64,000 nt of DNA, taken from positions 1-64,000 of the forward strand of contig NZ_NCSY01000013.1 in the NCBI RefSeq assembly GCF_002156875.1. The letters are read 5' to 3'. The stretch comes from Bacillus sp. EAC. Its GTDB lineage: Bacteria; Bacillota; Bacilli; Bacillales; Bacillaceae_G. The notes below the pieces were generated by a model. The model searched no databases and was not told where the DNA came from. It saw only the letters and a program-made list of their open reading frames with translations. The translations under genes were made by a program, and so were the position numbers. Below, one piece after another: positions 235 to 34,968 of the stretch (its first letter is position 1; each line of letters opens with the position of its first letter).

Positions 235-317
235 AACTAACTGGCGCTTTAGTTGAACAACATGATCGGCTGTATAGTCGATTTTTTTTAATGCTCTAGG
301 CAGTTTAGTTGAACAAG
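235..317 (+). repeat. Array junction 1: box A, hairpin, box B
   Basis: Box A is 235-254 with centre TGGCGC and a GTTAGTT arm changed to TTTAGTT. A hairpin of the ATCGRCT/AGTCGAT class with a T-run is at 263-288. Box B at about 293-317 ends TTTAGTTGAACAAG. The upstream flank matches junction 40 (34896) up to GAACAAC after box A and then diverges. Confidence 0.85.
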
Positions 318-397
318 AAAATCAACGATATGGAAATATATGTTAAAATATTAAATAACTAACCTAAAAACTAATTATTGTTAAGAGAGGGGTTTTT

Positions 398-682
398 ATG
401 AAAAGTTTCAGTACAATTTCGATTTTATTATTAATTATTGGATTGGCTTTGTTTGGGATACTTTATGTGATTCCAGGCTTCAACGAACTTATTGCTTTAG
501 TTGGTTTTTTATCTTTATTATTCGGTGCAATTTGTAGCTTTATAGCAATTTCTAAAAGAGAAGGAGGGAATACCAAGTTTTTTGCAGTGCCTTCCTTTTT
601 TATTATCTTTTTATTGATTACATGGTTTGAACCTTTTCGTATTGTATGGATGTTTACTTGGATGAAAAATTTACTTTCATAA
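398..682 (+). CDS. Small three-helix membrane protein, unknown function
   Basis: The 94-residue product is almost wholly hydrophobic. It has predicted membrane segments at about 5-27, 32-52 and 63-90, with a short basic loop SKREGGNTK between helices two and three. The ATG follows a good ribosome binding site (AGAGAGGGG, about 8 bases upstream). It is the only gene between junctions 1 and 2, so it is a single-gene array unit. I do not recognise the family; small membrane proteins of this kind are common in Bacilli. Confidence 0.6.
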   Translation: MKSFSTISILLLIIGLALFGILYVIPGFNELIALVGFLSLLFGAICSFIAISKREGGNTKFFAVPSFFIIFLLITWFEPFRIVWMFTWMKNLLS

Positions 683-717
683 CTTTTGCATATCGAAAAC
701 GTAAAAACTGCTTATGT

Positions 718-772
718 AACTAACTGGCGCGTTAGTTGTAGATCTTGGGTTGCCCTTGGCAGCTCATTTTTT
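718..772 (+). repeat. Array junction 2: box A and hairpin
   Basis: Box A 718-737 is the consensus AACTAACTGGCGCGTTAGTT. The hairpin at 747-765 pairs GGGTTGCC with GGCAGCTC using G-U pairs and is followed by a short T-run. No clear box B. Confidence 0.85.
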
Positions 773-913
773 ATGAAGAAAGAGACAAAATTCCCCCAAG
801 TTACAAATCTAAATATTAAGGTATAATTAAAATTAAATTATAAAAAAATGTAATTTTTAATCTTTATATTAGTATCTTGTAAATATTTGGATTTAAAATT
901 ATTGGAGAGTCAT

Positions 914-1024
914 ATGGGTTATATTGCCTTTTTATTGGTTGCAATTGTAATTAATGCTTTAGCCATTTTTTGTTTATTTATTTTAGACAAACAAAATAAT
1001 AAGAAAACAAAAATAAACAGATAG
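914..1024 (+). CDS. 36-residue single-helix membrane peptide
   Basis: A short reading frame (ATG 914, TAG 1022-1024) encodes one long hydrophobic helix followed by a basic, Asn/Lys-rich tail (DKQNNKKTKINR). A ribosome binding site (GGAGAG) sits about 6 bases upstream. It is the only possible gene in the unit between junctions 2 and 3. Its position, start signal and helix-plus-basic-tail form make it plausible, but length alone gives weak statistical support. No homologue is recognised. Confidence 0.5.
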   Translation: MGYIAFLLVAIVINALAIFCLFILDKQNNKKTKINR

Positions 1025-1126
1025 GACATACATAATTGAAATAGAAAAATTTAACTAGAATTCTTTTAAAGCTTACGATAGTTGGATAGTGGAGTTGCAA
1101 GTTTAATCATAAATAAATCTTTACTG

Positions 1127-1190
1127 AACTAACTGGCGCGTTAGTTGAACAAAAAAAAAAGAGGATGATCCTTAATAGATCATCCTCTTT
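1127..1190 (+). repeat. Array junction 3: box A and perfect terminator hairpin
   Basis: Box A 1127-1146 is consensus. The hairpin pairs GAGGATGATC (1161-1170) with GATCATCCTC (1178-1187) perfectly, with an A-run before and a T-run after, so it can terminate in both directions. Confidence 0.88.
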
Positions 1191-1293
1191 TTCACATTAT
1201 GACTGCATAGTTACACAAAGAAAGGATATTTTTGTTTTCTTATTGAATAGGTATATTATCGTAATCGCAATATTTTCAAAGAAGGAGAAATAC

Positions 1294-1617
1294 ATGGATA
1301 TAAATACGAATCCAAAAATAATAATTTCACGAACTTCACAATATGTTAATAAATTAAGAAGTTACAAAGTTTTTATTGATAGTAAAGTGGTAGGTAAAAT
1401 AAAAGACGGTGAACGTTTGACCTTAGAAGTAGCACCAGGAAAACACTCTATCTATTTAGAAATTGATTGGTGTAAAAGTAACAATATAAAGTTCAATAGT
1501 AAGCAAAATGAAATTACGCAGTTTAACTGTGGAAGTAATATAAAAGGGGTTAAAATCTTATTCACATGGTGCTTTTTATTTTCAAAAAACAAGTGGGTAT
1601 ATTTACAAAAAAGATAA
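1294..1617 (+). CDS. Conserved small cytosolic protein with PEGA-like beta region
   Basis: The product is 107 residues from ATG 1294, which has the ribosome binding site AGAAGGAGA about 6 bases upstream. An upstream in-frame ATG at 1165 lies inside the junction-3 hairpin and would translate the terminator, so it is rejected. The text YKVFIDSKVVGKIKDGERLTL..PGKHSIYLEIDWC resembles PEGA-like beta domains that recur in small Bacillus proteins. A hydrophobic patch (GVKILFTWCFLF) lies near the C-terminus. Function is unknown. Single-gene array unit. Confidence 0.6.
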   Translation: MDINTNPKIIISRTSQYVNKLRSYKVFIDSKVVGKIKDGERLTLEVAPGKHSIYLEIDWCKSNNIKFNSKQNEITQFNCGSNIKGVKILFTWCFLFSKNKWVYLQKR

Positions 1618-1625
1618 TACTGTTG

Positions 1626-1696: not shown

Positions 1697-1767
1697 AGGA
1701 TTTTATATAAGAACAAAGAAGAATATTAATAAAATCGTTTTTTTATAAAAAAGGAGTTTATATAAAT

Positions 1768-3254: not shown

Positions 3255-3274
3255 AATTAACGAGCGCGTTAGTT
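3255..3274 (+). repeat. Array junction 7: box A only
   Basis: AATTAACGAGCGCGTTAGTT at 3255-3274 has centre GAGCGC and one changed base in the left arm. No hairpin follows. Confidence 0.8.
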
Positions 3275-4378: not shown

Positions 4379-4398
4379 AACTAACTGGCGCGTTAGTT
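4379..4398 (+). repeat. Array junction 8: box A
   Basis: Consensus AACTAACTGGCGCGTTAGTT, preceded by CCTTATTG. No strong hairpin follows. Confidence 0.85.
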
Positions 4399-5110: not shown

Positions 5111-5167
5111 AACTAACGAGCGACTTAGTTACATAAGATCACGAGTCGCAAATGCGACTCTTTTTTG
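5111..5167 (+). repeat. Array junction 9: box A and hairpin
   Basis: Box A 5111-5130 (AACTAACGAGCGACTTAGTT) has a degenerate right arm. Perfect hairpin GAGTCGCA-AA-TGCGACTC (5143-5160) plus six Ts. Confidence 0.83.
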
Positions 5168-5263
5168 TGTTGAAATCGGTCTTTAATTGGATGATATTTA
5201 AAAAAAGGTGAATATAAGACTTATGTCGAATAGTTGAAGAAATTAAAATATTTGGAGGTAAAT

Positions 5264-5365
5264 ATGTCATTATATGTTCTTGGACAACTAGAAATTTATG
5301 TCTTACCACTAGTTGCATTGTATTGGTTCGCACGATTTGTTAAAGCATATGAGTCAAAAAACTAA
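5264..5365 (+). CDS. 33-residue small membrane peptide
   Basis: ATG 5264 follows TTTGGAGG with ideal spacing, and the frame ends at TAA 5363-5365. The peptide has a hydrophobic centre (EIYVLPLVALYWFARFV) and a charged tail. It is the only open frame with a start signal between junctions 9 and 10, so I call it a single-gene unit. There is no homology evidence. Confidence 0.5.
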   Translation: MSLYVLGQLEIYVLPLVALYWFARFVKAYESKN

Positions 5366-5421
5366 TAAAATATTATTTCTTCTAAGTTGAAATCTGTAAT
5401 TGTGATAAAAATTTCTTATTC

Positions 5422-5507
5422 AACTAACTGGCGCGTTAGTTCAATATCACGAGTTGCCAGTTGCAGCTCTTTTTTTATTCAAGTAACTGGCAGTATAGGT
5501 GAACAAG
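5422..5507 (+). repeat. Array junction 10: box A, hairpin, box B (complete)
   Basis: Consensus box A 5422-5441; hairpin GAGTTGC-CAG-TTGCAGCTC with T-run (5451-5476); box B 5480-5507 (AAGTAACTGGCAGTATAGGTGAACAAG). A clean example of the three-part unit. Confidence 0.88.
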
Positions 5508-5585
5508 GTTTTTATCTATTAACGGAGAATTGATTATTTAGATTAGGTATTTTGAGGTGAAGAAAATGTTAACGGAGGTGTAGTT

Positions 5586-6017: not shown

Positions 6018-6071
6018 AACTAACTGGCGCGATAGTTACATTACCTGAGTCACAGAAGTGACTCTTTTTTT
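6018..6071 (+). repeat. Array junction 11: box A and hairpin
   Basis: Box A 6018-6037 has right arm GATAGTT. Hairpin GAGTCACAGAAGTGACTC (6047-6064) with seven Ts. Confidence 0.85.
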
Positions 6072-8657: not shown

Positions 8658-8677
8658 AACTAACGCATGCTTTAGTT
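8658..8677 (+). repeat. Array junction 12: box A only
   Basis: AACTAACGCATGCTTTAGTT: palindromic-class centre GCATGC with one arm mismatch. No adjacent hairpin; about 100 bases with no recognisable feature follow. Confidence 0.82.
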
Positions 8678-8834: not shown

Positions 8835-10535
8835 TTAAATGCTAAAACCTTTAACTGTATCTTGTAATTCAACGGCCATTTTACTTAATACTTCTGCTGA
8901 AGCAGACATTTCTTCAATAGAGGCATTTTGTTGCTCGGCTGCTGCCGCTACAGTCTGTGATTGTCCAGATGCCTCCATAGAAATTGCAGAGTTCTTTTCA
9001 ACGATATGCATGATATTTAAGGAACTTGCATTGATTTCTTCAAAGATAGCAGAAACTTCTTGTGTTTGTGAAGATACCTCTTCAATCATTTTTACTATAT
9101 GAGTAAAGTTTTCTCCCGATTCACTTACAAGGTGAATACCATTTTTTATTTCTTCTGAACCTTCATCCATTGATGTGATTACTTTTTTTACTTCATTTTG
9201 AATTAAGATAACTAGTTCAGATATTTGTTTTGATGCAGTTCGTGATTGTTCTGCAAGTTTCTTTACTTCATCAGCAACAACAGCAAAACCTTTTCCTTGT
9301 TCACCGGCTCTTGCAGCCTCAATTGCAGCATTTAGTGCTAATAGATTCGTTTGTTCTGAGATTTCAGTAATGATTGTGACAATGTTTCCGATTTCGTTTG
9401 ATTTTTCACCTAGTCCATTAACAATAATCGAAGTATTGTTAACTGTGTCATTGATCATATTCATTTGTTCCACTGTTTTTACCAATACTTTATTTCCATG
9501 AATCGCTTTTTCAGTTGTTGAAAGTGAGTTTTCGGCTACTGTTTGAATAGAAGAGGCTGCTTGCTCCATACCCGAAGAAATTTCCTTTACTACGATATAT
9601 GCCTCTTTACTACTATTCTCTTGTTGTTCTGAGCCCTCAGCAATTCCAATGATTGAATCAGTAATTTGTTCAGATGCACGACTTGTTTCTTCTGCACTAG
9701 CCGATAGTTCTTCAGAAGTTGATGCTACTAATTGAGAGTTCTCAATTACTTTTACTATGATCTCTTTTAAATTTATCGTCATTGTATTAAAGTCTTTTGC
9801 CAACTCACCAATTTCATCTTTATTCTTAATCGTAACTGGTTCAAGAGAAAGATTTCCATTTGATACTTCCCTTACTTGATTAGTTAGAAGGGTAAGTGGA
9901 TTTTTTATATTTCTAATCATTACGATAGCAATTGTAATTAAAGCAATAATAGAAAAACTTACAATAATAATTGTTACATCGAGCACGCTCTTAAATTGTT
10001 TTTCAGAATCACTTGTAATTGTTTTTGCCTCTTTTTTATGCAACTTTACTAGGGCATCTAAGTCAGTTTGCATTAGATCAAACAATTTAATACCATCATA
10101 CGAAGTTAGGATAGCATTCTCTGTATCATAATTGTTACTTAATGTAAGAACCTCATTGTTTTTTTTAAGATAGTTTTGCCATTTGATTTTTAAAGAATTG
10201 AAATGTTCTCTTTCACTATTTGTAGTTAATAGTTTTTGATAATTAGAGAAAGTTGTATCTAATAATGAGACAGTATTATCTATACTCTGTTCATATTGTG
10301 TCTTATAAGGTTTGTCTTTCGAAATAATGTGATTTTGAGTTAGTGTCATAATATGTTCAGTAAAATAATTAATATCACCGATATCAGCAATTTTAGGCGA
10401 AACACTCTTACTTAAATTACTAGTATTATTATTTAATGAATAAGCACTATAAATTGAGAACCCACTTAAAGCGATTATGATTAATAATATTGATACAAAA
10501 GTCAGTATTAGTTTCTTTCCAATGGTCCAGTTCAT
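8835..10535 (-). CDS. Methyl-accepting chemotaxis protein
   Basis: The 566-residue receptor has an N-terminal membrane helix (about 10-32), an extracytoplasmic four-helix-bundle-type sensor, a second helix (about 188-212), a HAMP region ([28 protein letters not shown]) and a long signalling coiled coil. The highly conserved hairpin tip is present ([41 protein letters not shown]). It lacks a C-terminal CheR-binding pentapeptide. The start at 10535 follows AGAGAGG with 8-base spacing; a longer N-terminus to 10577 is less likely. It is one of two clear minus-strand genes in the array. Confidence 0.93.
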
Positions 10536-10820
10536 AAAAAAATCCTCTCTTTTAAAAAAAGTAAAATTGTAATACATAGAATAATATCGACCGATGTGTC
10601 GAAGGTTTGAAGATAATGTCGAAAATTGTAAGGAATAAGTGTTGATAAGTTATTTTCACGGATAGATAATTGATTGTGTTTTATAACAATCTTAAGATAA
10701 ATATAGAAGTTAGAGGATGGAACAGGCGGTCATCGCTCTCGTTGGAGATGTGGGAGTGTCAACATCGCTTCATTTGTTTTAAGTTGCTCTCGTGGGTACC
10801 TTATATAATAGAACTTATGT
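10536..10820. other. Intergenic stretch with decayed GC-rich repeat
   Basis: This is the promoter side of the minus-strand receptor. From about 10720 to 10800 a patch of higher GC (GGCGGTCATCGCTCTCG ... GTGGGAGTGTCAAC) vaguely resembles the GC-rich repeats at 51.2 and 63.0 kb. No gene seen. Confidence 0.35.
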
Positions 10821-10899
10821 CACTAACTGGCGCGTTAGTTGGATAACATGATCGACTATTTAGTCGATTTTTTTATTGTGCTAACGCTATAATAAAAGG
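10821..10899 (+). repeat. Array junction 13: box A, hairpin, box B
   Basis: Box A 10821-10840 (CACTAACTGGCGCGTTAGTT); hairpin ATCGACTATTTAGTCGAT (10851-10868) with T-run; degenerate box B (GTGCTAACGCTATAATAAAAGG). Confidence 0.86.
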
Positions 10900-11174: not shown

Positions 11175-11258
11175 AACTAACTGGCGCGCTAGTTGAACAA
11201 CGATGGACTACTTTGGTAGTCCATTTTTTTGGGCATTATACTGTAATTAGAAATGTGA
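11175..11258 (+). repeat. Array junction 14: box A, hairpin, decayed box B
   Basis: Box A 11175-11194 (right arm GCTAGTT); hairpin TGGACTAC-TTTG-GTAGTCCA (11204-11223) with seven Ts; box B remnant ACTGTAATTAGAAATG. Confidence 0.85.
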
Positions 11259-12253: not shown

Positions 12254-12265
12254 CAATTCTTATGT

Positions 12266-12345
12266 AACTATCTGGCGCTTTAGTTGGATAACACCAATGG
12301 CTGTTATTGCGCCTTTTTTGCTCTAAATGTCAGGATAGTTTTTAG
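12266..12345 (+). repeat. Array junction 15: degenerate box A, weak hairpin, box B
   Basis: Box A 12266-12285 (AACTATCTGGCGCTTTAGTT). A weak GGC/GCC hairpin with T-run lies near 12299-12317. Box B remnant AATGTCAGGATAGTTT. Confidence 0.7.
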
Positions 12346-12607
12346 AGTGATGAATAAATAGGATAATTTGCTTTGGATATTTGAATACTTTAATTTATTT
12401 TTTTCCTTTTTATTAGTTTTTCCTGTGAGATTACCTTTGTATATTGTAACAAGAATGGGGTCGGGGGATCTTACCCTTGAAGCCTTGCTTTTTGGACATT
12501 GATTAATCACTTTCTTTCCTTGAGAATGTAATTATCATTTCTAAAAGCGAGGTTTTTTAACGTAAAAAGTTGTGAAAAATCATATCTTTAATAAAGGGGG
12601 TTTTTCT
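12346..12607. other. Gene-less stretch before cwlJ
   Basis: No supported gene. It contains a short, more GC-rich patch near 12450-12500 and the 5' region of the cortex hydrolase gene. A minus-strand frame here has no ribosome binding site or recognisable domain. Confidence 0.4.
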
Positions 12608-13175: not shown

Positions 13176-13250
13176 TGGATTAGGTACGTATTTCTCTAGA
13201 GAATTGAAAAGATGGTGGGTTAAATAAATAGAGTTATAATTTTACTAATT

Positions 13251-13336
13251 GACTAACTGGCGCATTAGTTGAACAACAAGAGTTGCCGATGGCAGCTTTT
13301 TTTTTGTTGTATTAACTGACAGTATAGTTGTAAAAG
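13251..13336 (+). repeat. Array junction 16: box A, hairpin, box B
   Basis: Box A 13251-13270 (GACTAACTGGCGCATTAGTT); hairpin AGTTGCC-GAT-GGCAGCT with nine Ts (13281-13306); box B ATTAACTGACAGTATAGTTG. Confidence 0.87.
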
Positions 13337-13389
13337 AAATTAAAGTTTATAATTGAAAACGATGATAAAAAAATATAAGGATTTGATGC

Positions 13390-14778: not shown

Positions 14779-14798
14779 AACTAACTGGCGCGTTAGTT
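14779..14798 (+). repeat. Array junction 19: box A
   Basis: Consensus AACTAACTGGCGCGTTAGTT. A hairpin remnant (GGTTGTGACTGGCAATG) follows but has lost its T-run. Confidence 0.82.
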
Positions 14799-15598: not shown

Positions 15599-15710
15599 GT
15601 AATTTATTCATTGGGATAATCGTGTCATTGCTTGTATATTTGCTTATTAATCACACTTGTAGGGGAGATTTTGCGCCACATTCATCATTAAAAATGACTA
15701 ATACTTATGC

Positions 15711-15791
15711 AACTAACTGGCGCGTTAGTTGAACAGCATGGACTTCTTCAGCAGTCTTTTTTTTAGTTATCTGGCAAAATAGATTAATAAG
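15711..15791 (+). repeat. Array junction 20: box A, hairpin, box B
   Basis: Consensus box A 15711-15730; short hairpin GACT...AGTC with eight Ts (15741-15764); box B TAGTTATCTGGCAAAATAGATTAATAAG. Confidence 0.83.
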
Positions 15792-15873
15792 AAACCAAGA
15801 TTAAATTAGGATAGAATAAATGAAAGGGCGGTAAAAAGCTAAGCTATACCCAACAAGAATAAAATAATTCTTC
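15792..15873 (+). other. Gene-less array unit
   Basis: Only 82 bases separate junctions 20 and 21. The stretch has a ribosome-binding-like GATAGAATAAATG start but the frame stops after four codons (MKGR). It looks like an emptied or collapsed unit. Confidence 0.45.
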
Positions 15874-15942
15874 AACTAACGAGCGCGTTAGTTGAAAATC
15901 ATAAAGTTGCTTCAGTAGCTCTTTTCTGGATTGTTGAACATG
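15874..15942 (+). repeat. Array junction 21: box A and hairpin
   Basis: Box A 15874-15893 (AACTAACGAGCGCGTTAGTT); wobble hairpin AAAGTTGC/GTAGCTCTTT; possible box B remnant GGATTGTTGAACATG. Confidence 0.8.
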
Positions 15943-18234: not shown

Positions 18235-18254
18235 AACTAACGCATGTGTTAGTT
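18235..18254 (+). repeat. Array junction 22: box A only
   Basis: AACTAACGCATGTGTTAGTT: GCATGT centre, one step from the perfect palindrome class. Confidence 0.84.
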
Positions 18255-20265: not shown

Positions 20266-20391
20266 AAGAATACGAAATCTAAAAATGCATTAAAATAATT
20301 AGACACTGACTGAGTATCTATTAAAATTATAATTAAATGTAGAATCTAGCGCAGGAAGAAGTAGTGTTTTGTCTGTGAAATAATGTACTTA

Positions 20392-20475
20392 AAGCAACGC
20401 ATGCGTTAGTTACACAACAAGAGTTGCCAATGGCAGCTTTTTTTGTTGTAGTAACTGACAGGTTAATTGAAAAAA
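20392..20475 (+). repeat. Array junction 24: box A, hairpin, box B
   Basis: Box A 20392-20411 (AAGCAACGCATGCGTTAGTT); hairpin AGTTGCC-AAT-GGCAGCT with seven Ts; box B AGTAACTGACAGGTTAATTGAAAAA. Confidence 0.86.
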
Positions 20476-20538
20476 AAAGGAAAAAATTATCTAATTTGTC
20501 GAAATAAAAGAGAAAAGGTTTTAAGGAAGGAGAAGTCT

Positions 20539-21003
20539 ATGAATTACAAAGCAGAAATGAGAAAATTTATTGGTCACGAAACCCTATTAACTGTTGGTTG
20601 TGGGATAATTATAGAGGATAATGAACAGATATTGTTGCAACATCGGACTGATGAGGACAATTGGTGTATTCCTGGCGGACTTATGGAAATTGGAGAAACT
20701 TTTGAAGAGACTGCAAAGAGGGAATCTTTTGAAGAAACGGGGCTAACGGTAACGGATTTAGAGCTGTTTGGTATTTATTCAGGAGAAAGATGTTTTGTTC
20801 AATATCCCAATGGAGATAAGGTCTTCAGTGTTCAAATAATTTTTAAATCCAAACATTTTACAGGGGAATTAAAACAAAAGGATGTTGAGAGCAGAGAACA
20901 TCGTTTTTTCAGAAAGACGGAACTTCCTGCTAACTTAAATCCCCGTCAAAAACCATTTATAATTGATTGGGCAGAAGAAAATAGTCATCCAATTATAAAA
21001 TAA
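20539..21003 (+). CDS. Nudix hydrolase
   Basis: The 154-residue enzyme carries a full Nudix box (GGLMEIGETFEETAKRE ... FEETGL) at about residues 53-75, followed by a beta-rich second half (ELFGIYSGERCFVQYPNGDKVFSVQIIF). It should hydrolyse a nucleoside diphosphate-linked compound with Mg2+. ATG 20539 follows AAGGAAGGAG at good spacing; the frame extends upstream to 20467 without a site. It is intact, unlike the Nudix gene at 1768. Confidence 0.88.
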   Translation: MNYKAEMRKFIGHETLLTVGCGIIIEDNEQILLQHRTDEDNWCIPGGLMEIGETFEETAKRESFEETGLTVTDLELFGIYSGERCFVQYPNGDKVFSVQIIFKSKHFTGELKQKDVESREHRFFRKTELPANLNPRQKPFIIDWAEENSHPIIK

Positions 21004-21010
21004 TCTGATT

Positions 21011-21092
21011 AACTAACTGGCGCGTTAGTTCTACAGACTGATCGACTATTTAGTCGATATTTTTTGCACTAAATGGCAGTTTAGATTGCAAT
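21011..21092 (+). repeat. Array junction 25: box A, hairpin, box B
   Basis: Consensus box A 21011-21030; hairpin ATCGACTA-TT-TAGTCGAT (21041-21058); box B TTGCACTAAATGGCAGTTTAGATTG. Starts only 8 bases after the Nudix stop. Confidence 0.88.
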
Positions 21093-21255
21093 CTAATAAT
21101 ATGAATAATTAACCAGTACCTGTTCACTTAATTTTGTGTGAAATACTAAATGAATAAAGGAAAGTCAATTCGAAAATGAAGGACTTAAACGGAATGTAAA
21201 GAAATAGAATTAAGTATTGATGGAAAATGTTATTAACTATACGGAGGATAATATT

Positions 21256-22282: not shown

Positions 22283-22337
22283 TTTATTTCAATTTGCAGG
22301 GGATGATTTTATTACTAAATAAATATATTCGATATTG

Positions 22338-22422
22338 AACTAACGAGTGCGTTAGTTCAACAACAATGGCTGCTTAGGCAGTCTTTTTTTTATTGCACTA
22401 TCTGGCAGGATAGTTTAATAAG
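22338..22422 (+). repeat. Array junction 26: box A, hairpin, box B
   Basis: Box A 22338-22357 (centre GAGTGC); hairpin GGCTGC-TTA-GGCAGTC with eight Ts; box B ATTGCACTATCTGGCAGGATAG. Confidence 0.87.
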
Positions 22423-22564
22423 AATATGACCGCTTTTTTTATTGAAGCAAGCAAATGGCGGCATTGGTAAATTAAAAAGGTTTCTATCATTTATTGTGGA
22501 ATATAATAATTATACAAATGGAAATTAATACCATTAATAAAAAATTTAAAGGAATTAGATAAAA

Positions 22565-24273: not shown

Positions 24274-24330
24274 AACTAACTGGCGCGTTAGTTCAAGATC
24301 ATGAGTCACAGCTGCGGCTTGGCAGTATAT
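24274..24330 (+). repeat. Array junction 27: box A and hairpin without T-run, box B remnant
   Basis: Consensus box A 24274-24293. Hairpin remnant GAGTCACAGCTGCGGCTT lost its T-run and passes straight into TGGCAGTATATTCAC, a box B fragment. An open frame runs through the repeat into the next coding sequence. Confidence 0.78.
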
Positions 24331-24847: not shown

Positions 24848-24932
24848 AACTAACGAGCGCATTATTTATACTACGAGGGACTACTTAGGTAGTCTATTTT
24901 TTATTTCATTAACTGGCAATTAAAATAATAAG
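24848..24932 (+). repeat. Array junction 28: box A, hairpin, box B
   Basis: Box A 24848-24867 has a decayed right arm (ATTATTT); hairpin GACTAC-TTAG-GTAGTC; box B TTCATTAACTGGCAATTAAAATAATAAG. Confidence 0.82.
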
Positions 24933-25630: not shown

Positions 25631-25703
25631 AATGTGCTGAGTGATTTGGTTCTAAAGATTTTAATCGAAACTAAACATTCTACATGATTTCTTTTTCTTA
25701 TGT

Positions 25704-25790
25704 AACTAACTGGCGTGTTAGTTCAAAAACTAGAGTCGCTAATGCGGCTCTTTTTTTATTTATGTAAATGGCAGTAAAGTTAAAAACAAG
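25704..25790 (+). repeat. Array junction 29: box A, hairpin, box B
   Basis: Box A 25704-25723 (centre TGGCGT); hairpin AGAGTCGC-TAAT-GCGGCTCT with T-run; box B ATGTAAATGGCAGTAAAGTTAAAAACAAG. Confidence 0.87.
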
Positions 25791-25835
25791 AGGTTGTGAT
25801 AACATTAGGTTGATTAATTATTTGGAGGAAATTAA

Positions 25836-26237: not shown

Positions 26238-26267
26238 AAGATTTAGGATTTTTGAATTTCCTTATTG

Positions 26268-26352
26268 AACTAACTGGCGCGTTAGTTGAAGTTTAAGAGT
26301 AGCCAATGGCTGCTTTTTTTTATGAACAAATTAGTTGGATAGATGAACAAGG
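26268..26352 (+). repeat. Array junction 30: box A, hairpin, box B
   Basis: Consensus box A 26268-26287; hairpin AGTAGCC-AAT-GGCTGCT with eight Ts; box B ACAAATTAGTTGGATAGATGAACAAGG. Confidence 0.87.
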
Positions 26353-26409
26353 AATTAATATATAAATCTAGAAATAAATCATTAAATGGTATAGGCATGA
26401 GGGAAAGAA

Positions 26410-26690: not shown

Positions 26691-26710
26691 TACTAACGAG
26701 CGCGTTAGTT
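26691..26710 (+). repeat. Array junction 31: box A only
   Basis: TACTAACGAGCGCGTTAGTT, preceded by CCTTATTG. No hairpin before the next start codon 32 bases later. Confidence 0.83.
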
Positions 26711-26742: not shown

Positions 26743-26913
26743 ATGAGTTTTTTTGAGATACTAGGATGTTTTACTGCTTTTTTCGTATTAAGATATTTTT
26801 TGGACCTCAATTATAAAAAAACAGAAAAGAAAATGATTGTTATTGAATTCGTAATTACTACTGTTTTAGCGTTTATTATTGCATCTGGAATACGTTATTT
26901 ATTCAACTTATGA
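26743..26913 (+). CDS. 56-residue two-helix membrane peptide whose stop codon lies in box A
   Basis: ATG 26743 follows CGGGAGG at ideal spacing. The frame codes two hydrophobic helices separated by a basic segment (DLNYKKTEKKM). The stop codon TGA (26911-26913) is formed by bases of the box A copy at 26905-26924, so the last residues (FNL) are written by the repeat. This suggests the natural 3' end was replaced when the unit formed, or that the gene co-evolved with the repeat. Confidence 0.6.
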   Translation: MSFFEILGCFTAFFVLRYFLDLNYKKTEKKMIVIEFVITTVLAFIIASGIRYLFNL

Positions 26914-26990
26914 GCGTGTTAGTTGAATATCCGAACAAGAGTTAACTTTGGTAACTCTTGTTTCAATTAATGGGAAAATTAGTTTAAAGG
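26905..26990 (+). repeat. Array junction 32: box A, hairpin, box B
   Basis: Box A 26905-26924 (AACTTATGAGCGTGTTAGTT); hairpin AACAAGAGTTA/TAACTCTTGTT (26934-26962); box B CAATTAATGGGAAAATTAGTTTAAAGG. Confidence 0.82.
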
Positions 26991-27384: not shown

Positions 27385-27408
27385 AAGTTATTAATAGTTT
27401 CTTTGTTC

Positions 27409-27493
27409 AACTAACGAGAGCGTTAGTTGAAGATTAAGAGCAGCCATTGGCTGTTCTTTTTTAATGCAGTAACTGGTAGATTATTGAACAAGG
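27409..27493 (+). repeat. Array junction 33: box A, hairpin, box B
   Basis: Box A 27409-27428 (centre GAGAGC); hairpin AGAGCAGCC-ATT-GGCTGTTCT with six Ts; box B AGTAACTGGTAGATTATTGAACAAGG. Hairpin and box B match the box A-less junction at 3913. Confidence 0.87.
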
Positions 27494-27524
27494 AATGTTG
27501 TAACTTACTAAAGGAGTGGGGTTA

Positions 27525-27923: not shown

Positions 27924-27943
27924 AACTAACGCATGAGTTAATT
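27924..27943 (+). repeat. Array junction 34: box A
   Basis: AACTAACGCATGAGTTAATT has centre GCATGA and a decayed right arm. It marks the left edge of the RiPP unit. Confidence 0.8.
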
Positions 27944-28207: not shown

Positions 28208-29362
28208 ATGAAACCTTGTTTTAAGCATATACATCCTGTTTATGAAGTAGAAAAAGGGATTTTACGCGTTGGAGAAACATTGGATATTGCTGTAGAAATG
28301 GAAGACGAAGATGGATCTATTCGGTTTCTTATAAGCCTAATGGATGGAACTAGGACATTGGAGAATATTTATAAGGAAATATTAATCCAATATCCTCACA
28401 TTCAGTTTAATGAAATTATTGATGCTATTAATGAATTTAATAATATAGGAATGTTGTACGATTACGAACAAGAAGAATCAACAAAACTTACAGAGAGAGA
28501 GTTAGAGCGTTACAAGGTGAACCTCAATTACTTTTCTTTGTTTTCTAATTTAGATTTAAGTCCTCGCATGATACAAGAAAAACTAAATGACGCTAAAGTT
28601 ACAATTATAGGTGTAGGTGCATTTGGATGTAGTTTGTTACTTTACTTATCAGCTTTAGGTGTAAAACAAATCCAAATTATTGATGATGATACAATAGAAT
28701 TGAGCAATCTTAACCGTCAACTTATATTTAATGAATCGGATATTGGAAGATATAAGGTAGACGTGGCAAAAGAGTATATCGCAAAATTTCATTCTAGTAC
28801 AAGAATTGAAGCAATATCAAAACGAATTCTATCAAAAAGTGATGTAGAAGCTTATGTTACTGGTAGTGATTGTGTATTGCTTGCAGCTGACTATCCGAAA
28901 TTCATTTTGCAAGGTTGGGTTAATTCTGTGTGCGTTCAGCATAATATTCCTGCAATTTATGGCGGAGTAAATCTAGATAAAGGATTTGTATACTCTGTTA
29001 TACCTGGGAAAACTGGCTGTATTGATTGTATGATGTTAAATCGAGCAGAACAAGCAATTGACTTTGTTTCAATTTTGGAAAAGTATTTATTACTTAAATT
29101 CCAAAATCCATCAAGTGTTACTGCTCCTAATCTAATGATGGTGACAGGTATAATGGCAACTGAATTTCAAAGAATGGTAACTGGTGTAGGCGAAAAACTC
29201 TCTGCGGGACGTATACTAGCTGTTGATTTTGTGACTTATTCAACTTCAACAATTGAGGAATGGGAACAAAACCATGAAAAATGTCCAACTTGTGGTATAG
29301 GTTCACATGATCAGCCCATTTTTAAGGTTCTGGCACAGGCAGAAGAATATTTACTTTGTTAG
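28208..29362 (+). CDS. ThiF/MccB-type peptide-adenylating enzyme with leader-binding N-terminus
   Basis: The 384-residue protein has an N-terminal ~95-residue domain (HPVYEVEKGILRVGETLDIAVEMEDEDGSI ... LMDGTRTLENI) that looks like a RiPP recognition element, then an E1/ThiF domain: GVGAFG (135-140), DDDTIELSNLNRQ (159-171), and paired zinc cysteines CIDC (271-274) and CPTC (359-362). ThiF-like RiPP enzymes such as MccB and PaaA activate a peptide carboxylate or side chain with ATP. No YcaO gene is present, so azoline formation is not indicated. Stop and next start are 13 bases apart, so the two genes are likely one operon. Confidence 0.82.
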   Translation: MKPCFKHIHPVYEVEKGILRVGETLDIAVEMEDEDGSIRFLISLMDGTRTLENIYKEILIQYPHIQFNEIIDAINEFNNIGMLYDYEQEESTKLTERELERYKVNLNYFSLFSNLDLSPRMIQEKLNDAKVTIIGVGAFGCSLLLYLSALGVKQIQIIDDDTIELSNLNRQLIFNESDIGRYKVDVAKEYIAKFHSSTRIEAISKRILSKSDVEAYVTGSDCVLLAADYPKFILQGWVNSVCVQHNIPAIYGGVNLDKGFVYSVIPGKTGCIDCMMLNRAEQAIDFVSILEKYLLLKFQNPSSVTAPNLMMVTGIMATEFQRMVTGVGEKLSAGRILAVDFVTYSTSTIEEWEQNHEKCPTCGIGSHDQPIFKVLAQAEEYLLC

Positions 29363-29375
29363 TGAGGCTAAATAT

Positions 29376-30605
29376 ATGGAGTTAAATAAATCAAGTCGTT
29401 TAACTATGCATTCACTTGGTAGAAGAACTGTTAATGAAGATGAAACTTTAATTGGTAGGTATGATTTAGGTGATTTTCTAATCATGCCTAATATTGCTGT
29501 GGACATTATTGATATGTTTTGTCTTGGGAAATCAATTGCAGAGGTAGAAGTAATAACAAGAGAACAGTTAGGTCAAGACGTTGATGTCTTAGATTTTGCT
29601 CAAGATCTAGTTTATGAATATAAGTTTGTTTTTACTGTGGATGATACGATTGTAAATCCTAGTTTAAATAGAAAAGACCACTTTAGGTGGCTTTCAGAAC
29701 CAATTTCAAAGTTCTTCTTTCGTAAGAGTCTCTACTTTTTTTACACACTTTTAATCCTTTCTAGTATGGTAATTATGGGATTTAATAAGAAGTACTTTCC
29801 TGTTTATTCAGATATATTTTTCACAAAATCAACAACAATAATTATTCTTACATTGGTTATTTCCGGTTGGCTTCTTACATTATTTCATGAGACTGCTCAT
29901 TTAATTGCTGCTCGTTCATTAGGGATAGGTAGTAGGTTTGGTCTAAGTCATCGACTAGTTTTTGCAGTAGCAGAAACAGATATGTCTAATATTGTCCTTG
30001 TTGAACCAGCAAAACGTTATAGAGCATATTTTGCAGGTATGGTTTGTGATGGAATTATCATGAGTATGGGAATTTGGTTACAGTTTCTACTAGATACTTC
30101 TTTTCCCTCAATACCTAGTTTTCTAATTTCTGTATACAAGTTAATCAATTTCATACTTCTGATGCGGTTAGCTTTTCAATTTATGTTTTTCATGAAAACA
30201 GATATGTACTATGTATTCGCAACTTTATTTAAGTGTAACAATTTAATTGATAATACGAAGTTGTATCTCAAAGGACTTATATTTAATTTGAACAACACTG
30301 AAAAAAATGAATGGGAAAACATAGAAGACAATGAAAAATTGGTAATAAGTCGTATGTATGCTTGGTTTTATATAGCTGGTAGTATATGGGGAATTTGGTA
30401 TTTTTATCAATTCAATATAAAGCCACTATTGGAAGTAATAATACGTGTATGGAACGAAATGAAACATCACTCTATATTATCAATCGAATACTTTGATGGT
30501 ATTGGTGTAATAATTTTGTTATTGATTCCTTTTGCAATAGTGATCTTCTCTATTAGACGTAGTCTAAAAGTAAATCGAGAACAATTAATTCAACAATCTA
30601 ATTAA
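29376..30605 (+). CDS. Membrane M50-type metallopeptidase with PqqD-like N-terminus
   Basis: The 409-residue protein starts at ATG 29376 (GTGAGG upstream). Residues 1-90 resemble a PqqD/RRE-type domain (GRRTVNEDETLIGRYDLGDFLIMPNIAVDIIDMF). Then come several membrane helices with the zinc motif HETAH (171-175) in WLLTLFHETAHLIAARSLGIG and a second conserved site AGMVCDGIIMSMG (about 220-232). This fits site-2-protease-like M50 proteins found in RiPP loci, where they trim or export the modified peptide or give immunity. No ABC exporter is adjacent. The frame also opens upstream inside thiF, without a site. Confidence 0.78.
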   Translation: MELNKSSRLTMHSLGRRTVNEDETLIGRYDLGDFLIMPNIAVDIIDMFCLGKSIAEVEVITREQLGQDVDVLDFAQDLVYEYKFVFTVDDTIVNPSLNRKDHFRWLSEPISKFFFRKSLYFFYTLLILSSMVIMGFNKKYFPVYSDIFFTKSTTIIILTLVISGWLLTLFHETAHLIAARSLGIGSRFGLSHRLVFAVAETDMSNIVLVEPAKRYRAYFAGMVCDGIIMSMGIWLQFLLDTSFPSIPSFLISVYKLINFILLMRLAFQFMFFMKTDMYYVFATLFKCNNLIDNTKLYLKGLIFNLNNTEKNEWENIEDNEKLVISRMYAWFYIAGSIWGIWYFYQFNIKPLLEVIIRVWNEMKHHSILSIEYFDGIGVIILLLIPFAIVIFSIRRSLKVNREQLIQQSN

Positions 30606-30648: not shown

Positions 30649-30778
30649 AACTATTTGACGGTAGGTAGTAATCTGAATTTAATATTATCGATATTGATTA
30701 TTAATATTTATTTTTAACCATTCAAGATTCTTTGTCTACTCTTTAAAAATATAAGACTGACATAAATACATCTTATGC

Positions 30779-30862
30779 AACTAACGCATGCGTTAGTTGA
30801 TCAAAACTTAGGAGCTGAAGGTCAGCTCCTATTTCACTATTTGGCAGTAACCTTCAAATAAG
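30779..30862 (+). repeat. Array junction 35: box A, hairpin, box B
   Basis: Perfect palindromic box A (AACTAACGCATGCGTTAGTT); hairpin AGGAGCTGA-AGG-TCAGCTCCT; box B TTTCACTATTTGGCAGTAACCTTCAAATAAG. Right edge of the RiPP unit. Confidence 0.87.
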
Positions 30863-31033
30863 AAAAAGGAATACTTTATTAGCGATTTTATTTGATGACT
30901 TGATTTGGATTTAATTAATAGAAAAATAATAGTATACGACATTTTCATACTGAGTTTGATGAGTAGTCCAAGCTCTTTTTTGGGTCTAACATATAATATT
31001 TTAATTTATTAAATAAAAAAGGGTGATTTAATT

Positions 31034-32386: not shown

Positions 32387-32415
32387 TTTCTAAAGAATGT
32401 TAAGTTTCCTTATTC

Positions 32416-32495
32416 AACTAACGAGCGCGTTAGTTGAACAACCTGATCGACTGTTTAGTCGATTTTTTTATTGCACTAACTGGCAGTTTAGTTTT
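32416..32495 (+). repeat. Array junction 36: box A, hairpin, box B
   Basis: Box A 32416-32435 (centre GAGCGC); hairpin ATCGACT-GTTT-AGTCGAT with seven Ts; box B TTGCACTAACTGGCAGTTTAG, the clearest copy of box B. Confidence 0.9.
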
Positions 32496-32552
32496 AAAAA
32501 AAATGATAGAATTATCTTATATTAAATAAATGAGTTGAGGTAGTTTGAAAAT

Positions 32553-32951: not shown

Positions 32952-32974
32952 TAAGTTTTTTTCTCTTCTTATGC

Positions 32975-33060
32975 AACTAACTGGCGCATTAGTTGAATAA
33001 GGATAGGCTGCTACGGCAGTCTATTTTTTATTGTGCTAACTGGCAGTATAGTTCATTAAG
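32975..33060 (+). repeat. Array junction 37: box A, hairpin, box B
   Basis: Box A 32975-32994 (AACTAACTGGCGCATTAGTT); hairpin ATAGGCTGC-TAC-GGCAGTCTAT with T-run; box B TTGTGCTAACTGGCAGTATAG. Confidence 0.9.
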
Positions 33061-33105
33061 AGTGATATAATTAATAGCAAAATAGTCTAAAAGGATGTTT
33101 GAAAA

Positions 33106-33663
33106 ATGAAGTTTGAATATAAGTTAATAAGTACTGGTTGGGCAATTTTTAATATAGAAATTAATTCACAAAGTTTTAGTTTTAGTCCAGGATATCTCAC
33201 AGATGCATTAGGTGGTGTTTTAAATGCAATAAAAGATATCCATCCTTTATTTGATACTAGAGGCGATTATAAAGAAGATGGCTCAAATTATAGTTGGGAT
33301 GCAGAACCTGATATTTTAAAATGGAACTTTAAATACTTAGATAACGAGAATTTACTCATCGTTCTTACTCATTTTGTCGATGATGAAGGAGATTGGGAAG
33401 TAGTATTAAACGAAGTATGTCCTTATGATGTTTTTCTAAAAGAATTTCTAAGAGAAGTCGAACTTATTCTTGTAGAGTATGGAATTGTTGGATATAAGGA
33501 AATGTGGCATGAAAATGAATTTCCATTAAGTACATTTTTAGAACTAAAATTTTACTTAGAAAATAAGAAACGCTTTCCGATTGCTACAAATGTAGAAGGA
33601 TATGAAAAAACGAAAAAGAGTGATTTGAAATTTGAAATGGATTTCATTAATAAATTAATCTAA
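33106..33663 (+). CDS. Hypothetical acidic cytosolic protein, immunity-like
   Basis: The 185-residue product starts at ATG 33106. It has alternating beta strands (YKLISTGWAIFNIEINSQSFSFSPGYLTDALGGVLNAI; WNFKYLDNENLLIVLTHF) and many acidic residues. This composition and the opening strand pair with PGYLTDAL are seen in small proteins found singly near toxin or immunity genes of Bacilli. I cannot assign a family. Its stop codon is 6 bases before box A of junction 38. Confidence 0.6.
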   Translation: MKFEYKLISTGWAIFNIEINSQSFSFSPGYLTDALGGVLNAIKDIHPLFDTRGDYKEDGSNYSWDAEPDILKWNFKYLDNENLLIVLTHFVDDEGDWEVVLNEVCPYDVFLKEFLREVELILVEYGIVGYKEMWHENEFPLSTFLELKFYLENKKRFPIATNVEGYEKTKKSDLKFEMDFINKLI

Positions 33664-33666
33664 TTC

Positions 33667-33750
33667 AACTAACTGGCGCGATAGTTGAAGATAAAGAGTT
33701 GCCAATGGTGACTCTTTTTTTGTGCTAACTGGTAGTTTGGTTGAATAAGA
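33667..33750 (+). repeat. Array junction 38: box A, hairpin, box B
   Basis: Box A 33667-33686 (right arm GATAGTT); imperfect hairpin AGAGTTGCC-AAT-GGTGACTCT with seven Ts; box B TGTGCTAACTGGTAGTTTGG. Confidence 0.88.
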
Positions 33751-33813
33751 AAGGAATTGTATTGGTGTTTCTTGAATAAAGAAAATTAGATTAATTACAA
33801 CTAAGGAGGGTTT

Positions 33814-34242
33814 ATGAAAAAACGATACTTTCTAACATTAATTCTATCATTTTGTATATTTATTTCCGCATGTTCAACAATGAATGCCAGCAATGAAACG
33901 GAACAACCTAAAACATTGGACGTTAAACAAACCAGGGTACTTAAGGATTGGGATATTAAAGTAATTCCAAGGTTAGACCATAAAAAATGGGTTTATGACA
34001 CGTCGATTACATATTTGGGAGAAAAAAACGTACTTCATTTAACTGTAACAGATTACGCAAAAACTGAAGTAGAATATGAAAATGTAAAACCTCATTCACC
34101 ACTTAAAACCTTTGGAAGTTATGATTATGAAGGTAGTGTCTATTCAAACAAAAAGAATCAGTTATCGTTTACATTAACATGGAGTGAAGGTAACAACAAT
34201 TACTCTAAAATTGCTACATTTAAAATAAAACCCAAATATTAA
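33814..34242 (+). CDS. Lipoprotein, unknown function
   Basis: The 142-residue product starts at ATG 33814 behind AAGGAGGG. Signal peptide and lipobox ISAC (Cys at about residue 20) predict a lipid anchor. The mature part is beta-rich (WVYDTSITYLGEKNVLHLTVTDY; NQLSFTLTWSEGNNNYSKIATFKI), like an Ig-type domain. No family named. Single-gene unit between junctions 38 and 39. Confidence 0.66.
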   Translation: MKKRYFLTLILSFCIFISACSTMNASNETEQPKTLDVKQTRVLKDWDIKVIPRLDHKKWVYDTSITYLGEKNVLHLTVTDYAKTEVEYENVKPHSPLKTFGSYDYEGSVYSNKKNQLSFTLTWSEGNNNYSKIATFKIKPKY

Positions 34243-34291
34243 AGTCATCTTAAGATTGATAAAAATACTTAATTAAACTAAATGCTTATTC

Positions 34292-34311
34292 AACTAACTG
34301 GCGCGTTAGTT
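34292..34311 (+). repeat. Array junction 39: box A
   Basis: Consensus AACTAACTGGCGCGTTAGTT followed by GAAAAC; no hairpin with T-run. Confidence 0.86.
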
Positions 34312-34410
34312 GAAAACATTTTCACTTTAAAAGTATTTATGTAATCTATAGGTGAATAGTTTATAAAGTAGTATCAATAGATTATAAATTGTTAAGGGGA
34401 GGAAATTTAG

Positions 34411-34854
34411 TTGGCACCGTTTATTATCCTAATCTTTTCATTTTCTATTTTTCGTATAACCGGTGTATTAGGTATAGATTATTTTGACGGGTGGGAATCT
34501 TCTTTGCGAGTTGCTGTTGCTCTGATGTTTTTATTTACGGCTTCTGCTCACTGGGGAAAGAGACGTCCCGATCTTATTAAAATGGTACCCTCGAGGGTAC
34601 CAAACGCTGGACTTATGGTGACGATTACTGGGATACTTGAGGTTATAGGCGCTATATGTTTACTGATTCCATTTACTTCTAATATCGCTTCAATTGGTTT
34701 GGCATTACTACTTATTATTTTGTTTCCAGCTAATATTAATGCTAGTAGAAAACGACTCACGATTGCTGGAAAGCCTACTACGCCTTTATTTCTGCGAACT
34801 ATCTTACAAATCATTTTTTTAGTAGTTGTTATATTAGTTGGTGAAATCTTTTAA
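34411..34854 (+). CDS. DoxX-family membrane protein (last array unit)
   Basis: The 147-residue product starts at TTG 34411 after GGGGAGGAAA. Four hydrophobic segments and the motifs SLRVAVALMFLFTASAHWGKRR and GLMVTITGILEVIGAICLLIPFTS fit the DoxX family. Its 3' part is nearly identical to the gene cut by the window start (1-193), including the non-coding flank up to and into box A. It is the last gene before the repeat array ends. Confidence 0.8.
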   Translation: MAPFIILIFSFSIFRITGVLGIDYFDGWESSLRVAVALMFLFTASAHWGKRRPDLIKMVPSRVPNAGLMVTITGILEVIGAICLLIPFTSNIASIGLALLLIILFPANINASRKRLTIAGKPTTPLFLRTILQIIFLVVVILVGEIF

Positions 34855-34895
34855 AAGTTAGAAAATTTAATGCTTTTACTTCCATTTCGTTCTTC

Positions 34896-34968
34896 AACTA
34901 ACTGGCGCGTTACTTGAACAACAAATTGAGTGAAATAAAGTATGATCAAATAATGATCATACTCTTTC
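34896..34968 (+). repeat. Array junction 40 (last): box A and hairpin
   Basis: Box A 34896-34915 (right arm GTTACTT), then GAACAAC; hairpin AGTATGATCA/TGATCATACT (34939-34963) followed by CTTT. No box B. I find no further copy of the repeat from here to base 64000. Confidence 0.83.

Follow-up and report, generated by a model that had tools for sequence, protein, structure and literature searches.

Single-recombinase Xer systems such as XerA and XerH act on one dif site per chromosome and resolve dimers. In Acinetobacter, dif (pdif) modules are recombined by Xer-type enzymes and have dyads with 6-bp spacers at their borders. According to PMC13141974, their C/D and D/C sites alternate, XerC and XerD each use an arm of their own, and high spacer identity is needed. 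Complete integrons are reported to be almost absent from Firmicutes; PMC9024848 lists Limnochorda pilosa as the one complete case, alongside a few CALIN. Here, we analyzed a 64,000-bp stretch (“the window”) of contig NZ_NCSY01000013.1 from Bacillus sp. EAC, a relative of Gottfriedia (Bacillales), along with the rest of its genome. The window probably holds part of a chromosomal gene-cassette array in which a tyrosine recombinase, likely a 279-amino acid (aa) Xer-like protein, moves units reaching from one copy of a short dyad (box A) to the next.

Extent, Orientation, and Layering of the Array

Box A is a dif-like dyad with 7-bp inverted arms and a 6-bp spacer. The pattern AACTAACN6GTTAGTT (≤2 mismatches) matches the window 40 times against 0.45 expected, a count reached in 0 of 100 shuffles, and 39 of the matches lie within positions 1-35,000. 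Judged by the spacer, 33 matches point along the + strand, 6 are undecidable, and 1 is opposite. These counts bear out a first-pass annotation of the window, which had described about 40 one-way copies in 34.7 kb; its statement that the following 29 kb hold none is nearly correct, as the single match there (38,214) has 2 mismatches and an odd centre and is probably due to chance. The match at 32,474 is a second box (box B) rather than box A, leaving 38 box A sites in the window part of the array (1-34923, + strand). The median distance between sites in the window is 619 bp. After the last box A (34896-34915), there is no further copy up to the contig end at 80,147, save the weak match mentioned above. 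Of 8 relatives, 7 also carry the gene adjoining the array.

Position 1 of the window is a contig end inside the array, and positions 1-262 are a 99% repeat of 34662-34923; several contigs end at duplicated units. The sharp clustering reported earlier holds within the window, but the array exceeds it and continues on other contigs: the genome has 116 exact box A copies, and one contig carries an array of about 160 kb. A search of the whole genome for the reversed pattern found 0 exact sites, and site orientation is near-uniform within each contig.

The genes mostly run with the array, one per unit, as first annotated. Across 368 units from this genome and G. solisilvae, the longest ATG-initiated open reading frame lies along the array in 294 units and against it in 35, and is shorter than 50 aa in 39. 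A gene for a methyl-accepting chemotaxis protein (8838-10577, - strand) is opposite to the array direction. The median distance is 29 bp from a stop codon to the next box A and 161 bp from box A to the ATG (245 units). When 25 kb out of the 35 kb of array served as query, plasmids gave one 91-bp Vibrio match, within the chemotaxis gene, and phages gave none; exact box patterns in viral contigs numbered 0, 0, and 1.

Box A spacers in the window, all on the + strand, include TGGCGC (718-737, with exact arms), GAGCGC (3255-3274 and 15874-15893), GCATGC (2196-2215 and 8658-8677), GCATGT (18235-18254), and GCATGA (27924-27943). Further + strand copies are located at 2582-2601, 4379-4398, 6018-6037, 10821-10840, 11175-11194, 14779-14798, 18758-18777, 24274-24293, 24848-24867, and 26905-26924, and the copy at 34292-34311 (+) precedes a DoxX-like unit (26.1 bits, just missing the Pfam cut-off of 26.3). 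Spacer types are layered in the order TGG, GAG, and NNATG, both along contig C26 of this genome (rho 0.57, 0 of 2,000 permutations) and along contig C11 of G. solisilvae (rho 0.44, 0 of 2,000 permutations), where a recombinase remnant stands at the TGG end. Such layering in two species is as expected of growth from one end.

Composite Sites

The order within a unit is box A, terminator, box B, and gene. Composite sites consisting of box A, a T-tailed hairpin, and box B occur on the + strand of the window at 227-323, 1119-1225 (box A at 1127), 1618-1704 (box A at 1626), 5414-5513 (box A at 5422, box B at 5481), 12258-12353, 13243-13342, 15703-15797, 20384-20481, 21003-21099, 22330-22428 (box A spacer GAGTGC, box B at 22396), 25696-25794, 27401-27499, 30771-30867, and 32967-33066, in addition to those discussed with their copies below. 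The hairpin and box B had been described as frequent companions of box A, which is what we found: 234 of 368 units have a T-run after box A, compared with 314 of 1,840 random positions, and 177 of 351 sites have a box B above the 99% level of the null, that is, often but not always. Hexamers resembling TATAAT are commonest 33 bp into box B, at 22 of 201; the positions on either side have 6 and 8 and no other position exceeds 12, which hints that a minority of units carry promoters.

Box A is conserved in sequence. Covariation between boxes A and B was not found in a test of two registers over 65 sites, to which invariant arms contribute no information (1127 paired cells, 1133 expected). In 4 of 5 sites, boxes A and B pair with each other in the best fold of the array strand, and a site's own box B folds about 0.4 kcal/mol better than a swapped one (5 of 5 swaps), while the number of A-B folds after swapping remains similar (55 vs. 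51 of 176). Folding of the attC type was rejected as a requirement because A-B covariation is absent and A-B folds survive box B swaps. Given their sequence conservation and lack of covariation, the elements are not attC-like in this respect, contrary to the initial comparison.

Unit Mobility and Breakpoints

Homologous units were compared between species (G. solisilvae and other relatives) and as duplicates within genomes. Among 31 pairs, the adjacent units were homologous in 0 of 28 decidable cases on the left and 0 of 26 on the right, and an earlier set of 21 pairs gave 0 of 19 and 0 of 17. In the window, the box A-to-box A unit at 5111-5441 (+) has a 91.8% identical homologue in G. solisilvae, the unit of the composite site at 26260-26357 (+) a 97.7% copy on contig C26, and the unit reaching from the composite site at 33659-33755 (+) to 34291 a 93.6% copy on contig C13, each among different neighbours. 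The rare TACTAAC arm of the box A at 26691-26710 (+) recurs in the C26 copy, and the composite site at 32408-32506 (+; box A at 32416, box B at 32474) has a near-identical copy on contig C12.

Concordance between homologous units switches within box A. In the 16 pairs with at least 94% identity, position -3 of the right box is kept in 16 of 16 and +20 in 5 of 16, and position -1 of the left box is kept in 4 of 16 and +21 in 14 of 16. As neighbours never match and concordance switches inside box A, single-gene units move individually by recombination in box A. Blast gave 93 matches of at least 150 bp, of which 22 begin and 29 stop within a 23-bp interval at box A of at least one of the two sequences, where one random position would fall with a chance of 2%; both ends are in box A for 14 of the 93, and many of the others are partial gene similarities. 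Single-unit shuffling with breakpoints in box A, which the first-pass annotation had named as a test between strains, is thus seen between species and between duplicates within genomes, and the refuting pattern named with it, a fixed gene order with independently inserted boxes, is not. A crossover within 9 bp, derived from the 21 pairs, was dropped because the 31 pairs show mixed inheritance at the -2, -1 dinucleotide and in the spacer; accordingly, the crossover is claimed only for the core, from about -2 to +13. In the 16 closest pairs, 3 left boxes and 5 right ones have spacers that differ at two or more of the first four bases, and such mismatches in recombined sites are poorly tolerated by ordinary double-strand Xer exchange.

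The stretch 3' of box A is concordant with the downstream unit and not with the upstream one. The composite site therefore precedes the gene with which it moves, opposite to the order in an integron cassette and to the first-pass annotation, which had placed each site behind (3' of) its gene. A unit without a visible box B or terminator has three copies in G. solisilvae, and a need of box B for mobility was rejected on this basis.

An Array-Encoded Xer-Like Recombinase

A dedicated recombinase had been suggested for the array, and its gene was found inside it, though on contig C22 rather than on that of the window. The gene (C22:14704-15543) is opposite to the array genes, has box sites around it, and encodes a 279-aa Xer-like tyrosine recombinase. 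The protein has the six catalytic residues (R138, K162, H228, R231, H254, and Y263) and PF00589 and PF02899 as its only domains, as in a simple Xer-type enzyme with a core-binding and a catalytic domain; all six residues (R-K-H-R-H-Y) are present in 31 of 32 aligned family members. Its closest solved relative by sequence is 4a8e (114.8 bits), deposited as a probable XerC-like recombinase and an archaeal XerA; the scores against XerD, XerA 5hxy, and IntI4 (2a3v) are 111.1, 83.7, and 52.9 bits. This protein is likely the enzyme acting on box A.

A true integron or CALIN, in which IntI acts on folded attC sites and was missed because of divergence, would also show a one-way array of one-gene units, a divergent recombinase gene, and layered growth, and the composite site can fold. 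We nevertheless consider this explanation improbable. The recombinase scores 94.5 bits with the integron-integrase model TIGR02249, far below the cut-off of 265, and is nearer to 4a8e and XerD than to IntI4. From the catalytic Lys to HxxR, the place of the IntI insertion, the protein has 66 aa, fewer than the 71 of XerD and the 73 of XerC in the same genome, in an alignment made up without IntI sequences. The absence of A-B covariation, the indifference of fold number to box B swapping, the movement of sites with the downstream gene, and the thrice-copied unit lacking box B all argue in the same direction.

Several relatives have the recombinase gene between box A and box B, and sites lie on both sides of the gene in G. 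acidiceleris and the plasmid CP053689.1. A box B-like site (≤5 mismatches), a candidate counterpart of the attI next to an integrase gene, was identified 5' of the gene at 5 loci out of 20, compared with 7 of 1020 in the null; the site in the window's genome has 7 mismatches. The scan covered those of 36 loci for which a simple search found an ATG-start gene. The position of the recombinase gene between box A and box B and the inverted repeats at the outer site edges would suit a tyrosine-recombinase transposon (box A - int - box B) whose MITEs or terminator elements were inserted independently behind genes. Such insertion should be independent of the neighbouring genes, whereas here genes travel with their sites, and the near-uniform orientation and clustering also speak against it, making this origin improbable as well.

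Recombinase orthologues were identified in 83 of 397 genomes of the order. An orthologue is present in 14 of 17 genomes with at least five exact sites and in 69 of the 380 others (Fisher 4.7e-8, uncorrected for kinship), and 69 of the 83 recombinase-bearing genomes have fewer than five exact sites. Three site-bearing genomes (G009, G017, and G348) had no orthologue among the at most six candidates scored per genome. A scan for repeated dyads at 20 recombinase loci of the order found the array type in 2, and is insensitive, as it also missed the arrays of Psychrobacillus vulpis. This species has a recombinase of 66% identity and its own box A-hairpin-box B elements, in which boxes and spacers are altered; the fetched stretches contain 64 such boxes, compared with 0 in shuffles.

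The host also encodes XerC and XerD, and, given the dif-like architecture of box A, these could shuffle units as in dif modules, with the array recombinase as a passenger. This is no less doubtful than the transposon origin: as indirect evidence, a separate dif-like site of other sequence occurs once in each of two genomes, box spacers change along with the array recombinase in P. vulpis and a Sporosarcina plasmid, and site orientation does not alternate. Homologous recombination between the boxes, in favour of which are their direct repetition and the contigs ending at duplicated units, is the least probable explanation, since it leaves the layering unexplained and the boxes, with a core of 20 bp, are short substrates for RecA.

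Proposed Mechanism and Implications

In the favoured reading of a recombinase-driven cassette array, a mobile unit would comprise the right part of one box A, a terminator hairpin, box B, a gene, and the left part of the next box A. The 279-aa recombinase, encoded divergently from the array genes, may excise and insert such units by strand exchange inside box A, presumably as circles. New units would enter mostly near the recombinase gene, and spacer types would then represent age layers. As each unit usually brings its own upstream terminator, the genes may be insulated from each other and should have their own promoters; box B may have a role that the mobility of units does not depend on. 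Several observations weigh against this reading: the recombinase gene is not on the contig of the window, sites occur on either side of it in G. acidiceleris and CP053689.1, most recombinase-bearing genomes have few exact sites, three site-bearing genomes yielded no orthologue, most blast matches lack a box A at one or both ends, and spacers of recombined sites sometimes differ. More broadly, we give even chances to a second cassette platform in Bacillales with an origin separate from the integron, comprising an Xer-derived recombinase on double-stranded dif-like sites, terminator-insulated and self-promoted cassettes, arrays of more than 100 units grown from the recombinase end, and a recombinase gene, lying between the two boxes in several relatives, as perhaps the autonomous source of cassette sites.

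With its superintegron size, the array is an integron-like platform within Bacillales, and searches based on IntI and attC would probably overlook it. A related system exists in at least one other genus, and the recombinase and sites also occur on plasmids. The array would help to show, independently of integrons, which parts a cassette system requires, with folded sites, a shared promoter, and IntI perhaps dispensable, and opens a stock of mobile genes that are largely unnamed.

Comparison With Known Systems

Among single-recombinase Xer systems, the likeness lies in 4a8e as the best solved relative, and the near-symmetric arms of box A would suit a single enzyme; the array differs in having many sites plus a separate dif-like site. 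With pdif modules, it shares 6-bp-spacer dyads at the module borders and an Xer-type enzyme, but its sites are in direct orientation, number more than 100 in one genome, sometimes differ in spacer after recombination, and are accompanied by a dedicated recombinase within the array.

Like those of integrons, the array is long and almost uniformly oriented, its mobile units mostly carry single genes of mixed or unknown function, its recombinase gene is divergent from it, its site variants are typical of the species, and its layers lead away from a recombinase remnant (here in one genome). In contrast to integrons, the recombinase is Xer-like without the IntI insertion, the site is conserved in sequence, with no A-B covariation found, and precedes its travelling gene, units usually begin with a terminator, and the host belongs to Bacillales. 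The initial proposal, a Bacillota system resembling integrons but served by a recombinase of its own, is supported by the recombinase within the array and by single-unit shuffling. The array is an integron-like platform that fits the definition of neither integrons nor dif modules, and it appears to use an enzyme and a site other than those of integrons.

Composite sites and their extent

Allowing up to two mismatches, the window contains 40 matches to the box A dyad (AACTAAC-N6-GTTAGTT) against 0.45 expected, and 39 of these lie within 1-35,000 (the match at 32,474 is a box B), which bears out the first-pass annotation of about 40 copies clustered in the first ~35 kb. Its statement that no box occurs in the following 29 kb holds for the array density, which ends there, but not strictly, as one weak match is present at 38,214, the sole one beyond 35,000. 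The genome (4.33 Mb in 28 contigs, of which C4, 80 kb long, holds the window as its bases 1-64,000) has 116 exact copies of box A and none of the reversed pattern. At up to two mismatches, the fetched stretches hold about 240 sites (40 in the window, 21 on C7, 16 on C10, 15 on C12, 10 on C13, 12 on C14, 15 on C22, and 113 on C26), a total that takes in a few box B sites and, towards the far end of C26, matches that are probably due to chance. Gottfriedia solisilvae, of the same genus as the window, has 135 exact sites. Site orientation is near-uniform inside each contig, as had been noted for the boxes; contrary spacer centres occur once in the window, once in C7, once in the first 60 kb of C26, and three times further along C26.

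Units are duplicated at the ends of several contigs, and the assembly thus seems to be broken by the array. Window positions 1-262 repeat 34662-34923 directly (99% identical), so that the contig starts with a second copy of the last unit, and C7 ends in this same unit. Positions 1-3828 of C13 carry imperfect repeats that precede its array part and also match the end of C10.

Unit anatomy and cargo

Box A (consensus CTTATTC-AACTAAC-TGGCGC-GTTAGTT-GAACAAC) is followed by a T-tailed hairpin, box B (consensus ATTGCACTAAC-TGGCAG-TTTAGTT-GAACAAG), and the gene. At 177 of 351 sites, box B scored above the 99% level of the null; it follows box A often, as annotated, but not at every site. The dinucleotides flanking the core are drawn from similar pools (as reverse complements), with no visible within-site correlation for the one position pair tabulated. 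The 368 units of this genome and of G. solisilvae have a median length of 653 bp. Their longest ATG ORF follows the array direction in 294 and opposes it in 35, and in 39 it is shorter than 50 aa, in agreement with the single gene direction first noted. The medians from box A to ATG and from stop to next box A are 161 bp and 29 bp, respectively (245 units with an along-array ORF of at least 80 aa).

A Pfam scan of 38 array ORFs left 17 without a family at 0.001. The others include Nudix (2), carbonic anhydrase, Mn catalase, an MFS transporter, an APH-family protein, a beta-lactamase-family protein (PF00144), MepB-like, cell-wall hydrolase, ThiF, and several DUFs; some are under Pfam's cut-off, and all are family matches rather than functions. 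PADLOC returned one match among 10 array proteins, the ThiF protein to E1-E2 models. Within one unit (28208-30605), an unnamed 432-aa ORF overlaps the ThiF/E1-like gene, whose best E1-E2 defence-model match scored 51.6 bits. A methyl-accepting chemotaxis protein gene lies within the array on the minus strand (8838-10577), and a Lysine riboswitch (Rfam RF00168, 117.6 bits) beyond it (57942-58115).

Movement of single units

Within and between the arrays of the two genomes, 93 BLAST matches of at least 150 bp were found, of which 22 start, 29 end, and 14 do both in a 23-bp window at box A (counted if the match end falls there on one or both sequences; 2% for a single random position). The remaining matches end outside these windows and are often partial gene similarities. 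Fourteen matches, picked for ends at box A, were inspected base by base; in one example, two G. solisilvae units share 99.4% identity across 474 bp, and their flanks are unrelated. Among 464 units from eight genomes (12 being second-orientation copies of two short stretches), 31 homologous pairs were identified (coverage ≥ 0.7, identity ≥ 68%), some sharing members and hence not independent. Of the neighbours that could be decided, 0 of 28 on the left and 0 of 26 on the right were homologous.

Among the 16 pairs with at least 94% identity, the right box is conserved in all 16 at position -3, in 9 at -2, in 11 at -1, in 10 to 14 across spacer positions 7-10, and in 5 at +20. Conservation of the left box extends to 4 pairs at -1, 13 to 14 across spacer positions 7-10, and 12 to 16 from +20 to +26. 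This position-wise inheritance places the exchange inside the box A core, with the terminator and box B after it travelling with the downstream gene. The rare left-arm variants AACAAAC and TACTAAC, common to paired right boxes, agree with such exchange. Within the pairs of at least 94% identity, 3 left and 5 right boxes differ at two or more of the first four spacer bases, which is hard to square with strict spacer homology. By these sequence comparisons, units move singly by exchange inside the box A core. The first-pass annotation, which had asked for breakpoints in box A, is upheld on that point, but the site moves with the gene 3' of it.

The first-pass annotation had likened the outer edges to those of attC sites. 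The best fold of the array strand joins box A to box B around the terminator at 4 of 5 sites (z-scores between -2.3 and -5.3 for the eight strands that were folded in all). Against this, A-B covariation was absent among 65 of the 77 composite sites of this genome, both in the direct register (1127 paired cells versus 1133 expected) and in the bulged register (600 versus 599.4), invariant arms being uninformative here. Swapping box B among 176 sites hardly changed the number of A-B folds (55 versus 51), although own pairs were about 0.4 kcal/mol more stable than swapped ones in five of five swaps. The composite site is read as a double-stranded recombinase site, single-strand use of box A being less likely.

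The array recombinase

Five genes of the genome match the phage-integrase family: one XerC- and one XerD-type above cut-off, two others, and one of 279 aa. The last lies at C22:14704-15543, pointing opposite to the cassette genes; C22 opens in array sequence and carries sites at 12,588, 14,588, 15,630, and 15,689. A recombinase gene, which the first-pass annotation proposed to seek by extending the contig, thus lies among the sites, on C22 rather than C4. The models that fit this protein best are NF040815 (XerA-type; 207.8 bits, cut-off 220) and XerC (205.1 bits, cut-off 335), and the integron integrase model gives 94.5 bits (cut-off 265). All six catalytic residues are present in 31 of 32 aligned family members. 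This family is short in the stretch where IntI has its insertion, which PMC8138268 describes as essential to the working of integrons. In several relatives, box A was seen by eye just beyond the recombinase 3' end and box B about 75-150 bp upstream of the start. Box B with up to five mismatches occurs upstream at 5 of 20 loci versus 7 of 1,020 random stretches, and the box B-like site of the present genome has seven mismatches. A second G. solisilvae copy (L061:10001-10831), 91% identical to the query, has Asp for the catalytic Tyr.

Distribution

By recombinase, the nearest named relatives include G. solisilvae (92%) and G. acidiceleris (82%). Of 397 genomes from the order, 83 have an orthologue (E at most 1e-60, with partial or broken copies counted), spread over 42 of 135 genera; at least five exact N6/N7 sites occur in 17 of the 397. 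An orthologue is present in 14 of these 17 and in 69 of the 380 genomes with fewer sites (Fisher 4.7e-8, uncorrected for kinship), so most carriers are without arrays of the exact sequence found here. A repeated-dyad scan of 20 fetched loci, which also missed Psychrobacillus vulpis loci known to hold boxes, found the box type only in L181 (six dyads) and L170 (two). The P. vulpis recombinase is 66% identical, and this species has its own A-hairpin-B elements with spacers GGGTGC and 7-nt GGGGCAG-like; 64 boxes were counted in 0.19 Mb versus 0 in shuffles, in stretches mostly chosen for holding the pattern.

Recombinase and sites also occur on plasmids of Sporosarcina psychrophila and CP053689.1. 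The latter, labelled Arthrobacter citreus NEB 577, bears a Gottfriedia-type array, and its coordinates recur in G016, a genome of the window's genus; the label looks wrong. Of two IMG/VR contigs (L164; L231), one codes for a recombinase of 59% identity and the other has an exact P. vulpis-type box B. A Peribacillus simplex plasmid (L166, 15873-18840) carries two tyrosine recombinase genes about 1.3 kb apart.

Layering along the array

Spacers follow the order TGG, GAG, NNATG in the first 160 kb of C26 (rho 0.57, 90 of 109 sites classified), and a like order is found at 440-600 kb of G. solisilvae C11 (rho 0.44, 141 of 151); 0 of 2,000 permutations were as strong in either case. On C11, the TGG end holds the remnant of a recombinase gene (455,951), ahead of the first sites near 460.7 kb. 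As the recombinase contig of the present genome is not joined to C26, the layer direction is visible only in G. solisilvae. The CP053689.1 plasmid and G. acidiceleris have sites to either side of the recombinase gene, which is not what a strict rule of growth from one end predicts. Each genome has one dif-like site (C26:197886-197908 here; C1:32243-32265 in G. solisilvae). The former is about 40 kb past the dense part of the C26 array, which may therefore lie near the replication terminus.

Comparison with known systems

Among the open-access matches listed, no description of such arrays in Bacillales was found, and the array type is probably novel. The comparison drew on PMC9024848 and PMC8876359 for integrons and on PMC13141974 for dif modules. 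Integrons likewise form arrays, and dif modules are likewise bounded by dyads with a 6-bp spacer. The integron-like system with its own recombinase that the first-pass annotation suspected in Bacillota is supported by units that move singly and a non-IntI recombinase gene among the sites. What sets this integron-like cassette platform apart is a recombinase other than IntI, a site resembling dif, cassettes of reversed polarity, and terminators built into the units; although it operates as an integron does, it falls outside integrons on several tests of membership.
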